36,862 nt of DNA from an uncultured Hyphomicrobiaceae bacterium (GTDB lineage: Bacteria > Pseudomonadota > Alphaproteobacteria > Rhizobiales > CALHAX01). Location: assembly GCA_937931785.1 (NCBI GenBank), contig CALHAX010000119.1, positions 1 through 36,862 of the forward strand, read 5' to 3'. The position numbers and the translations under genes are program-made. Under the pieces are notes generated by a model. It was not told the origin of the DNA and ran no database searches. It worked only from the letters and a program-made list of their open reading frames with translations. Positions within the stretch are counted from its first letter, which is position 1; each line of letters begins with the position of its first letter. This document shows positions 9,054-19,366 of this stretch, one piece after another.

Positions 9054-9761
9054 TCAGACTTCCTTGAAGCGATACCCGACACCGTAGAGTGTTTCGATCA
9101 CATCGAAGTCATCATCCGCAACTTTGAACTTCTTGCGCAGACGTTTGATGTGACTATCGATCGTCCGGTCATCCACATAAACGGAGTCATCATAAGCGGC
9201 GTCCATCAAAGCGTCCCGGCTTTTTACGACGCCCGGGCGTTGTGCCAACGCCTGGAGGATCAGGAACTCTGTCACTGTCAGCGTCACCCCATGACCATCC
9301 CAGTGGCACGTATGCCGCTCCGGATCCATCTTCAGCTTACCGCGCTCAACAATGTCTGCGCCTGAGGCTTCCCCACTCGTGTCGGCACGCGCACTGGCGC
9401 GTCGCAACACGGCTTTGACTCGCTCGATGAGCAGCCGTTGCGAAAACGGCTTCGCAATATAATCATCAGCGCCCATCTTGAGCCCGAACAGCTCGTCGAT
9501 CTCGTCGTCTTTCGATGTCAGGAAGATGACAGGCAGTTCCATGGTCTGGCGGATTTTTCGCAGCAGTTCCATGCCATCCATACGTGGCATTTTGATATCA
9601 AGGATCGCAAGATCTGGTGGATCTTCCGCAAATGCCTCAAGAGCAGATGCCCCTTCATTGTAGGTGCGGATCTTGTAGCCCTCGGTCTCCAGTGCCACGC
9701 GCAGTGACGATAGAATATTCCGGTCATCGTCAACCAGGGCGATAGTGTTGTTCGTTCTCAT
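9054..9761 (-). CDS. chvI: Response regulator ChvI (OmpR/PhoB family)
   Basis: The product has 235 residues from the ATG at 9761, which has AGGGG a few bases upstream; an in-frame GTG at 9776 is less likely. The receiver domain shows the acidic triad near residues 11-13, phosphoacceptor Asp55 ([13 protein letters not shown]), the switch Thr (FLTSK) and the AKPF lysine. The C-terminal winged helix ends with the usual YGVGYRF motif and includes [17 protein letters not shown]. It is the cognate partner of ChvG, whose gene follows after a 212-base gap containing a hairpin. It is divergent from pckA, the classical rhizobial arrangement. Confidence 0.94.
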
Positions 9762-16153: not shown

Positions 16154-16861
16154 ATGGCCGCACCGAAAACCGACATTGAAATTCTCGGCAATTCACCGCT
16201 GTTCGACGGCATCGGTGACGAGGAAATGGAGCGGTTGAGCGAACTTCTGCGCGACGTGAAATTGAAACCCGGATCACCGCTGTTCATGCAGGACGATGCG
16301 CCAGATGGCTGCTACGCCATTTTCGAGGGCACCGTGACAGTCTCCGTCGTGACGCAAACCGGAGAAGAAAGCCTCCTCGCCGTGCTTGGCGAAGGCGATA
16401 TGATTGGCGAGATGGGCCTGATCGACGACCAACCGCGTTCGGCGTCCATCGTCGCCCTGAAACCCTGTCGCCTCGGTTTTCTCTCCCGCGCGGAATTCCA
16501 ACGCTTTGCAGATCAGCACCCGTCAATCTATCGCCACATGCTGCGCCTGCTCAGCGCTCGCCTGCGCGACACGAACGCAAGCTTCACATCACAACAAACC
16601 CTGCCCCTGAGCGGTCGGCTGGCCGGTGTGCTGCTCCGCCTTGCAAAAGGGTTCGGCGAACCGCTTGATGGCGGCGACCGTATTTTGATCCGTCAGGTCT
16701 TCACGCAGGATGTGCTTGCCCGAATGGCCGGCGGCGCCCGCGAAAACGTCAGCCGCCAGATCAACAAATGGCGCAAGGACGGCACACTTAGCAAGATCAG
16801 CCGCTACTACTGCATCGAGAATGAGGAAGTTCTGGAAGACGAGGCGAATCCGCCGGGGTGA
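16154..16861 (+). CDS. Crp/Fnr-family transcriptional regulator with CRP-like recognition helix
   Basis: The product has 235 residues, with a cyclic-nucleotide-binding beta-roll (about 10-125), a dimer helix and a winged HTH (about 150-225). The phosphate-binding cassette GEMGLIDDQPRSAS keeps the Glu and Arg used for cAMP binding in E. coli CRP. The N-terminal cysteines of FNR are absent, so no oxygen-sensing cluster is expected. The recognition helix ARENVSRQI has the R-E-x-x-x-R spacing that reads TGTGA half-sites. A perfect TGTGA-N6-TCACA site lies 1.2 kb downstream at 18024. It is divergent from the AGXT2-like aminotransferase gene. Confidence 0.9.
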   Translation: MAAPKTDIEILGNSPLFDGIGDEEMERLSELLRDVKLKPGSPLFMQDDAPDGCYAIFEGTVTVSVVTQTGEESLLAVLGEGDMIGEMGLIDDQPRSASIVALKPCRLGFLSRAEFQRFADQHPSIYRHMLRLLSARLRDTNASFTSQQTLPLSGRLAGVLLRLAKGFGEPLDGGDRILIRQVFTQDVLARMAGGARENVSRQINKWRKDGTLSKISRYYCIENEEVLEDEANPPG

Positions 16862-16954
16862 CGGCCGCTTGACGGATAGACGGTGAACCGGCGAAACAGG
16901 TTGCGAAGGGAATTTTACAGCGGCATTCATGCGCGCGTGGCTCGGGGCTATTGG

Positions 16955-17884
16955 ATGTCAGAGGAACAGGATCGCGGACAAACAAGTCCGTGGTCGGAAG
17001 CTGCGGCGATTGCAACCATACTCGTTTTGTCGTTTGGCCTCGCATTGCTTGCATCTGATTGGAATGCAAGCCGTGGGTTATTTGAGTACCATAATGCCAA
17101 GCAGGAGCAGGGTCGCACCCAAGATCGATATTGCTATCCCGCCCTTCATTCGAACGCCGGAAGTCCAACCTCCGTAGGGAATAAGAGCGCCGCCAGCGAT
17201 GATGAGAAGAAACGATACGATCTTTGTCAGCAATGGCGAATGGCCAAAGCAGCTGAGGCAGAAGCTACCGACAGCGGCAGACAGGTTGTGCTGGGCGGAT
17301 TTAGCGTCGTTCTTTTGATCCTCGCCACTTGGGCTGCGTGGTTAGCAGCTCGGTACACCAAGAAGACCATCACGATTACTCGTCAGCAACTCACTGAAAC
17401 CCAGAGAGCTTTTGTATTTCTCGACGGATTCAGAGCTACGATGGAGGAAAGCGGGAGTGTCACGTTCGTCGGCCAATTGGTCAACTCGGGGAACACGCCA
17501 ACACAGAAGATGGTTTCTCATGTGAGTTCCAGTTCTATGCCTAGCGATCTTCCAGAAGATTTTGGCTACCCTGATATACCCGGAAGATATCCGTTGAGCC
17601 CACTTCTCATCGGCCCAAACGGTCGTATTGATACAGTAGGAATTCGCCTTCCACCTGACCGAGTCGCATTCATGCAGCAGGGCATGACCCGGACATACAT
17701 CTGGGGCTGGGTGGAGTATGATGATACGTTTGACAGCACGCCGAGGCATAGGACGGAGTTTTGTTTCGAGGTATTTTTGCCGCCTGAAATATCCGAGGCT
17801 ACACCTTGGCGACTCCAAATGTACGGACCGCACAACGGGCATGATGACACTTGTTTTAAAAGTACAAAACCTTACCCGTTCTAA
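16955..17884 (+). CDS. Hypothetical two-helix membrane protein
   Basis: The product has 309 residues from the ATG at 16955; a GTG at 16883 would add 24 Arg-rich residues. I do not recognise a named family. Helix 1 is at about residues 14-34 and helix 2 at about 110-133, separated by a hydrophilic, Cys-containing loop. After helix 2 come a Thr-rich segment (TKKTITITRQQLTETQRAF) and a C-terminal domain of about 150 residues with beta-strand character. That order (coil, QRAF, beta domain) is common in uncharacterised rhizobial membrane proteins. Codon use looks more relaxed and AT-richer than in neighbouring genes, which hints at recent acquisition. No operon partner is evident. Confidence 0.75.
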   Translation: MSEEQDRGQTSPWSEAAAIATILVLSFGLALLASDWNASRGLFEYHNAKQEQGRTQDRYCYPALHSNAGSPTSVGNKSAASDDEKKRYDLCQQWRMAKAAEAEATDSGRQVVLGGFSVVLLILATWAAWLAARYTKKTITITRQQLTETQRAFVFLDGFRATMEESGSVTFVGQLVNSGNTPTQKMVSHVSSSSMPSDLPEDFGYPDIPGRYPLSPLLIGPNGRIDTVGIRLPPDRVAFMQQGMTRTYIWGWVEYDDTFDSTPRHRTEFCFEVFLPPEISEATPWRLQMYGPHNGHDDTCFKSTKPYPF

Positions 17885-18023: not shown

Positions 18024-18066
18024 TGTGACGCACATCACATTCTTCTGCACGGGCGGGGGCCATAGT
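18024..18066 (+). promoter_or_regulatory. CRP-type operator and class II promoter
   Basis: TGTGA (18024-18028), a 6-base spacer and TCACA (18035-18039) form a perfect CRP consensus palindrome in a flank that also fits (aaaag before, ttctt after). The hexamer CATAGT (18061-18066) matches 4 of 6 TATAAT positions. If the start is about 18073, the operator is centred at -41.5, the standard class II activator position. The likely binder is the Crp-like protein encoded at 16154. The site precedes a structured, gene-free stretch. Confidence 0.65.
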
Positions 18067-18072
18067 CATCTC

Positions 18073-18275
18073 AAGTTGAGCAGCACAGACACAGGCGACG
18101 TAACGTTCTTCCTCCCCTCGGAACCCAAGCGTCCCTCGTGTTGCCAGAGCAGACCGCCGGATCAAACGACCAGTTTCCCCTGTCTGGTAGAAACGGTCCG
18201 GCAAACAAACAGACAGCAGTTTCTACTCCTCCCTCTGACGACTTTAAGGGCGCCTTTCCCCGGGCGCCCTTTTTC
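18073..18275 (+). ncRNA. Candidate CRP-controlled small RNA with C-rich (anti-SD) loops
   Basis: This stretch has no open frame but ordered structure. Hairpin 1 is GACG/CGTC (18097-18100, 18130-18133) outside GTTC/GAAC (18105-18108, 18121-18124), with loop ttcctcccctcg. Hairpin 2 is GCCGGA/TCCGGC (18156-18161, 18197-18202) outside ACCAG/CTGGT (18169-18173, 18184-18188), with loop tttcccctgt. A single-stranded CTCCTCCC (18226-18233) and a Rho-independent terminator follow. GTAGAAAC (18187-18194) can alternatively pair with GTTTCTAC (18219-18226), so a switch is possible. CCUCC-type loops resemble alphaproteobacterial anti-SD sRNAs such as the CcsR/cuckoo type. It could instead be a leader or attenuator for the gene at 18377. 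The start is inferred from promoter spacing. Confidence 0.6.
18246..18275 (+). terminator. Rho-independent terminator of the candidate small RNA
   Basis: The perfect 9-bp stem aagggcgcc (18246-18254) / ggcgccctt (18263-18271) with an 8-base loop is followed directly by further T residues. No coding gene ends nearby on the plus strand (the nearest stop is at 17884), so it must serve a noncoding transcript or leader. Confidence 0.9.
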
Positions 18276-18376
18276 TTTGGTCACGCCGCAGATCCTGGCA
18301 GAGGGCAGCCTTGAACTTGTTCCACCCGAAAAACCGGCGTACCACTGCGCCCTCGTTCGGGTTGAGGGATTTCAGT

Positions 18377-19366
18377 ATGGCCGCGCCGCTTACAATTGAC
18401 TGCCTGCAATATGCCAACTGGTCGGAGAAGATTTTCCGCCAGATGAAGAACGGCGGCGTATCCGCTGTCCACGTCACGATCACCTATCACGAGGATTTCC
18501 GCGAAACCGTCGAACAGATGGCCGACTGGAACCGCCGCTTCGAGCAGTTCCCAGACCTCATCATGCCGGGTCGCACCGCCGCCGATGTCCGCAAGGCTCA
18601 AGCCAACGGGAAGACCGCCATCTTCTTCGGTGCGCAAAACTGCTCTCCCATCGAGGATGACATCGGCTTGGTTGAAATCTGCCATCAGCTTGGCCTGCGC
18701 TTCATGCAACTCACGTACAACAACCAGTCCCTGCTCGCGACCGGCTGCTACGAGGCGGAAGACCCTGGCATCACGCGCATGGGCAAGCAGGTGATCAAGG
18801 AGATGAACCGCATCGGCCTTGTCGTCGACATGAGCCATTCCGCTGATCGCTCGACCCTTGAAGCCATCGAGATATCCGAGCGCCCCATCGCCATTACACA
18901 TGCCAACCCCGCGTCATGGCACCCGGGCCTGCGCAACAAATCCGACGATATCCTGAACGCACTGGCGCAAAGCGGCGGCATGCTCGGCTTTTCCCTCTAC
19001 CCGCATCATCTCAAGGGCAAGTCCGAGTGCACCGTGCAGGACTTTTGCGAAATGATTGCCCGCACCGCCGAACAAATGGGCGTTACGCAGATCGGCATCG
19101 GCTCCGACCTCTGCCAGGATCAACCGGACAGCGTTGTGGAATGGATGCGTGTCGGTCGTTGGTCGAAGGAGATCGACTACGGTGAAGGCTCCGCGAGCAA
19201 TGCCGGTTTCCCGCCCCAACCCGAATGGTTCAAGGACAATCGCGACTTCGGAAACATCCGCAAAGGTCTCACCGACGTAGGATTCTCCAAGGAAGACGTG
19301 AACCGCATCATGGGCGAGAACTGGCTCGCGTTCTTCGAGACATCATTCGGCCCGCAGTCGGCGTAG
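18377..19366 (+). CDS. Membrane dipeptidase-like protein (peptidase M19 fold), atypical metal site
   Basis: The product has 329 residues from the ATG at 18377, which has GAGGG 8 bases upstream; an upstream ATG at 18311 lacks a site. The M19 barrel is recognisable from VDMSHSADRST, AITHANPASWH and IGIGSDLCQ, which supply the second-half ligands. The first-half HxD motif is missing: the N-terminus reads IDCLQYANW. The usual glutamate region reads FFGAQNCSPIEDD. The binuclear zinc site is therefore altered, and dipeptide hydrolysis should not be assumed. It is the first gene of a plus-strand series whose next members are the unknown 568-residue protein and the DUF3726 protein, and it lies 102 bases after the sRNA terminator. 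Confidence 0.85.
   Translation: MAAPLTIDCLQYANWSEKIFRQMKNGGVSAVHVTITYHEDFRETVEQMADWNRRFEQFPDLIMPGRTAADVRKAQANGKTAIFFGAQNCSPIEDDIGLVEICHQLGLRFMQLTYNNQSLLATGCYEAEDPGITRMGKQVIKEMNRIGLVVDMSHSADRSTLEAIEISERPIAITHANPASWHPGLRNKSDDILNALAQSGGMLGFSLYPHHLKGKSECTVQDFCEMIARTAEQMGVTQIGIGSDLCQDQPDSVVEWMRVGRWSKEIDYGEGSASNAGFPPQPEWFKDNRDFGNIRKGLTDVGFSKEDVNRIMGENWLAFFETSFGPQSA

Follow-up and report, generated by a model that had tools for sequence, protein, structure and literature searches.

The stretch from 18073 to 18275 on the plus strand of the window, i.e. of the whole 36,862-nucleotide DNA analysed here (contig C119 of a 3.66-Mb genome), looks like a real, previously unannotated small regulatory RNA. 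As judged from the sequence, it is probably a free-standing gene for a Crp-activated, trans-acting anti-Shine-Dalgarno (aSD) sRNA that belongs to a small co-regulated set. Such an RNA would add a new lineage-specific member to a kind of sRNA that is already known. The preliminary description had read the element as a discrete non-coding sRNA that carries aSD loops and is driven by a Crp-type promoter, and this part is upheld by a promoter layout that is repeated across the genome, where it drives sister RNAs. In contrast, no support was obtained for the switch, the link to the CcsR/cuckoo group and the tie to the following gene that it also suggested.

Promoter, elements and fold of the predicted RNA

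All sequence elements named in the preliminary description were found in the window at their positions. A perfect Crp-type palindrome, TGTGACGCACATCACA, occupies positions 18024–18039, placing its centre at −41.5 relative to 18073, and the −10-like hexamer CATAGT (18061–18066, plus strand) follows 21 bases after the site. This arrangement fits a class II promoter, from which transcription is predicted to start at approximately 18073; the predicted 5′ end carries a CAAG start motif that is common to the sister promoters described below. TGTGACGCACATCACA is the sole perfect Crp site within the window. Searching the 3.66-Mb genome for TGTGA-N6-TCACA, that is with the six central bases left unconstrained, yielded 16 matches as compared to a single match for the reversed pattern. 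One site was counted twice, as it lies where the starts of contigs C53 and C73 overlap, leaving 15 distinct sites; the two contigs are probably adjacent. The 15 sites define the extended consensus TGTGA-YGYRCR-TCACA, which the site in the window fits. Since the central consensus YGYRCR is shared without having been searched for, and since the sites are enriched over the control, the set constitutes a genuine regulatory motif. Moreover, a Crp site followed after 20–22 nt by YATNNT occurs seven times at six distinct places, with no match in the reversed-pattern control. In most promoters of this layout a CAA start follows ~33–34 nt on, which the window fits exactly. Thus, comparison with the other promoters of the genome supports the predicted start at 18073.

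The gene at 16154–16861 (plus strand) encodes a Crp/Fnr-family regulator with cNMP-binding and Crp-type HTH domains, and may provide the activator. Its RENVSR motif is comparable to the recognition motif RE(T/M)VGR of the main-cluster Crp proteins (PMC10127613). Similar recognition motifs, REAVSR and REVISR, are present in two other genes of the genome (C92 and C81), and the product of the gene at 16154 is therefore best regarded as a candidate. The interval separating the sRNA from the regulator gene contains a 333-codon open reading frame (16883–17884) that has no Pfam match and a lower GC content (52%), and that was possibly acquired.

The predicted transcript comprises ~203 nt (18073–18275, plus strand). 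Hairpin 1 (18080–18144) presents the C-rich apical loop UCCUCCCCUC at 18110–18119, and hairpin 2 (18156–18202) the C-rich apical loop UUUCCCCUGU at 18174–18183. A third aSD element, CUCCUCCC (CTCCTCCC), resides at 18226–18233 in a weakly structured linker, and is followed at 18240–18271 by a GACUU-type spacer and a strong intrinsic terminator, AAGGGCGCC..GGGCGCCCUU with a subsequent U tract, the terminator itself covering 18246–18271. The plus strand folds with a z-score of −3.0 relative to dinucleotide shuffles (1 of 200 shuffles was as good), as compared to +0.1 for the minus strand. The terminator supplies most of this score, which drops to −1.6 upon its removal. According to the base-pair ensemble, the terminator stem forms with a probability of ~1, the stems of hairpin 2 with 0.94–1.0, and hairpin 1 with 0.96–1.0 in its middle stem and 0.66–0.80 in its lower and top stems. 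Both C-rich loops are predicted to be unpaired with probabilities of ~0.75–1.0 (0.77–1.0 for the loop of hairpin 2), while the free element CUCCUCCC is unpaired only in part. In this model, exposed C-rich segments would be available for pairing with ribosome-binding sites. A switch had been envisaged, in which GTAGAAAC (18187–18194) pairs with GTTTCTAC (18219–18226) in competition with the hairpins. These complementary segments are indeed present, but their pairing probability is a negligible 0.002, and the switch is therefore rejected. An alternative switch pairing, CTGTCTG with CAGACAG, was likewise discarded, having a probability of 0 in the ensemble.

Sister RNAs under the same promoter plan

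Two further loci combine the same promoter plan with a non-coding, C-rich and terminator-bounded RNA. On contig C53, the Crp site at 83–98 precedes a predicted RNA at ~130–321, and on the minus strand of contig C105 the site at 51136–51151 precedes a predicted RNA at ~51105–50936. The two RNAs can be aligned with each other from the CAAG start through the U tract. A joint model of both (R2) recovered exactly these two places in the own genome and nothing convincing in 396 other genomes. By sequence, they are clear paralogs of each other. A third RNA, at C67:22576 on the minus strand, features a hairpin with a CCCCUCCUCCCU loop (GATGCGT-TGCCCCTCCTCCCTCG-ACGCATC) and a terminator-like hairpin with a long stem. 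It probably belongs to the co-regulated set as well, and is listed as probable because its terminator was not called by the scanner. A search of Rfam with the C53, C105 and C67 RNAs gave no sRNA match for any of them. The single-sequence covariance model of the window RNA (R1) does not match the three RNAs, nor does R2 match the window. Hence, what the window RNA, the C67 RNA and the C53/C105 pair appear to have in common is promoter, C-rich content and terminator, with no detectable overall homology.

To quantify this combination, a scan rule demanded a terminator and two C-rich clusters within 300 nt, which 0.12% of the positions in a 347-kb sample meet by background. Two of 27 Crp-site orientations comply with the rule, including the preselected window, and 1 of 26 does so when the window is left out (P ~0.03); the C105 RNA falls narrowly below the two-cluster requirement. 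Taken alone, the enrichment of C-rich sequence and terminators behind Crp sites is modest, and the paralogy of the C53 and C105 RNAs under the same promoter is the stronger argument.

Promoters of this kind also precede genes for tiny, secreted-looking peptides of 46–49 residues, at C6:2509, C39:71604 (minus) and C105:50813 (minus). The Crp site carries a single mismatch in one of the three cases, the promoter layout being the same. The peptides share an ending of the type Y-S-NPF-A-R, e.g. MTKTLTAATVAIALSFTAIAGTATAAPTYGLSIGSGEVNPFVAIDGR. Two tandem copies of CAGTGAAATCCGTCTCGAAAACGTA lie in the interval that separates the C105 sRNA from the following Crp-driven peptide gene (L224, reverse complement, 9118–9168).

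Outside this genome, a DNA search of 397 genomes of the order as well as of phages and plasmids detected only short matches to the terminator or the Crp site. Of 249 genomes of the order, model R1 recognized none but the own genome, and 289 genomes of the class gave weak matches only, four of which were inspected and looked like chance. Accordingly, no homologue of the full element emerged from the covariance search of order and class genomes. A pattern scan around the 3′ aSD in 84,980 species genomes returned 17 matches, none recognized as the element; the match in Jhaorihella corresponds to a CcsR/ar14 locus. Sub-threshold suhB matches were considered as hidden homologues, and those inspected turned out to be mostly BjrC1505-like, mmgR-like or AbcR-like loci. 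One relative (G058:C101, L117) was observed to have a pair of C-rich hairpins together with a TAAACTTC spacer and a terminator.

The downstream gene, known sRNA families and coding potential

An M19 dipeptidase gene starts at 18377 on the same strand, ~100 bases past the terminator. The element might thus represent the 5′ leader of this gene, with the Crp promoter driving the gene and hairpins plus terminator forming an attenuator. Position and orientation agree with this idea, and the region yielded no sigma-70-type consensus promoter, hence none between the terminator and the M19 gene. However, the terminator stem is essentially always formed in the ensemble (probability ~1), with no competing antiterminator, and elsewhere this promoter layout serves RNAs with no co-directional gene behind them; at C53, the next large open reading frame faces the opposite way. 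In addition, the element is absent upstream of the M19 relatives in 12 genomes: at their 12 loci (71–78% identity) neither a Crp site nor a terminator nor any similar structure lies upstream, and the M19 gene mostly comes directly after another coding sequence. By this comparison, the M19 gene has no conserved leader of this type, and the functional tie to the following gene that had been suggested reduces to a positional link to the catabolic cluster. A leader function is therefore unlikely.

Slightly less likely still is that the RNA derives from a known family, ar8/mmgR or ar15/AbcR, and acquired its Crp promoter and additional hairpins in the course of divergence. In the window, no Rfam family reaches its gathering threshold. 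The best weak match is to suhB/mmgR, covering the 3′ module at 18215–18285 (28.9 bits versus a cut-off of 41, E = 5e-4), and Rfam groups suhB and ar15 in one clan, both of which speak for such an origin. So does the absence of an ar15 match elsewhere in the genome. The ar15 search of the own genome gave nothing at E ≤ 1, the window RNA thus not attaining the Rfam cut-off of 40 bits either. The AbcR1 and AbcR2 sRNAs of S. meliloti (ar15, RF02345) act in trans through the aSD sites CUCCUCCC (aSD1) and UUCCCCUC (aSD2) (PMC8844928). The window RNA resembles them in part, with C-rich aSD segments ahead of a terminator: CUCCUCCC is present exactly, and UUCCCCU covers 7/8 bases of UUCCCCUC. However, AbcR carries CUCCUCCC in the 5′ hairpin loop and UUCCCCUC between stems, whereas in the window CUCCUCCC lies in the linker and the aSD2-like bases in loop 2, in an RNA of ~200 nt with a third aSD. 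Most AbcR-like loci contain the core CAGCUGUUCCCCUCUGGAA, in place of which the window has CCAGUUUCCCCUGUCUGG. The promoters appear to differ as well, the window having the Crp layout and AbcR being controlled by LsrB/VtlR or RpoH1. That the regulator adjoining the window RNA is not of the LysR type counts against AbcR membership.

As to the second family (mmgR/SisA-D; ar8, suhB RF00519), its members act through the 10-mer UUUCCUCCCU (PMC12559287). The likeness lies in the 3′ module, i.e. single-stranded CCUCCCU, GACUU spacer and terminator. In the window the contiguous 10-mer is absent, its place being taken by the interrupted UUUCUACUCCUCCCU, albeit with the terminator present. The RNA is set further apart by the two long hairpins of its 5′ part, which present C-rich loops, and by its score below the cut-off. 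Furthermore, the genome encodes two true mmgR/suhB copies above the Rfam cut-off elsewhere, in tandem at C45:12273 and C45:12475 (L031, 5274–5349 and 5476–5555). A BjrC1505 sRNA (57 bits) was also noticed, on C128 (L032, 4351–4487, minus), and contains CCUCCC close to its 3′ end. The presence of mmgR and BjrC1505, together with the members of the order that were searched, points to an alphaproteobacterial genome. All in all, the window RNA looks as if it worked like the AbcR/ar8 RNAs, yet it does not come out as a member in the tests run.

The preliminary description had likened the RNA to the CcsR and cuckoo groups. CcsR1–4 and the ar14/SmelA075 group are multi-hairpin sRNAs with CCUCCUCCC in C-rich aSD loops (PMC3927594). 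Indeed, the window RNA likewise presents C-rich aSD loops on several hairpins, but these lack the CCUCCUCCC 9-mer, and the element is not located behind a DUF1127 gene. Its promoter is of the Crp type, whereas CcsR is under stress-sigma control. The ar14 score amounts to 14.1 bits versus a cut-off of 58.8, CcsR1 is absent among the matches listed up to E 10, and with no Rfam match above threshold the assignment finds no support. For comparison, in the control locus of Jhaorihella thermophila (L049, 3748–4149, minus) a DUF1127-like gene is followed by a CcsR/ar14 locus that has several CTCCTCCC hairpins.

It is highly improbable that the Crp promoter drives a short transcript coding for a small peptide, a situation encountered behind three further Crp sites in the genome: although promoters of the same layout do lead to the 46–49-residue peptides mentioned above and a 124-codon frame with a GTG start (18025–18399) traverses the element, this frame, the only long one through the region, begins before the inferred transcription start without a ribosome-binding site, crosses the terminator, has a GC distribution by codon position that is not clearly coding and bears no resemblance to the Crp-driven peptide family, and 18041–18300 contains no ATG start but only TTG or GTG starts without ribosome-binding site. 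In agreement with the earlier view, the element lacks a convincing open reading frame.

Proposed mode of action and a possible Crp-controlled RNA circuit

We favour the following scenario for the predicted sRNA. A Crp-type regulator with bound cyclic nucleotide would bind at 18024–18039 and activate the class II promoter. Transcription would proceed from near 18073 and end at the terminator (18246–18271), yielding an RNA of ~200 nt that, according to the fold model, may expose C-rich aSD segments in two hairpin loops and in the linker. By analogy to AbcR, NfeR1 and mmgR/SisA in relatives, whose mode of action the proposed one resembles, these segments could base-pair with several mRNAs at their purine-rich ribosome-binding regions, thereby lowering translation. 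In this analysis ~10% of the genome was read directly. Target prediction over 311 predicted start regions taken from ~10% of the genome performed no better than the controls (mean pairing energy −15.5 kcal/mol versus −15.2 and −16.0 with shuffled or reversed controls), and therefore no targets are named. Outside these families, GsrN of Caulobacter uses an exposed C-rich 5′ loop to pair with G-rich mRNA sites (PMC5869019), but differs in its sigma-T promoter, its length of 106 nt and its structure. In enterobacteria, CyaR is an sRNA that is activated by Crp and has a partial aSD loop (cited in PMC3927594). The aSD loop, and the Crp activation proposed for the window RNA, liken the two, no sequence relation to this gammaproteobacterial RNA being apparent.

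The signal may be cAMP or carbon status. That no fewer than two further RNAs, and probably three, share this promoter plan suggests a lineage-specific RNA circuit that responds to carbon or cAMP. More tentatively, and with the balance tipping slightly against it, the Crp-type regulator may control a set of four or more aSD sRNAs together with the tiny secreted peptide family, members that would share a promoter and have evolved in part independently, only the C53 and C105 RNAs being recognizably homologous. If true, Crp would here govern a circuit of several RNAs, for which we found no alphaproteobacterial precedent in the literature searched. The known control of aSD sRNAs in Alphaproteobacteria is of the LysR, RpoH and EcfG types. 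A set under Crp control would link this class of RNAs directly to cyclic-nucleotide signalling and carbon status, comparable to CyaR in enterobacteria. With several loci for tests available in one genome, it would also show how unrelated RNAs with like seeds come under the control of one promoter type.
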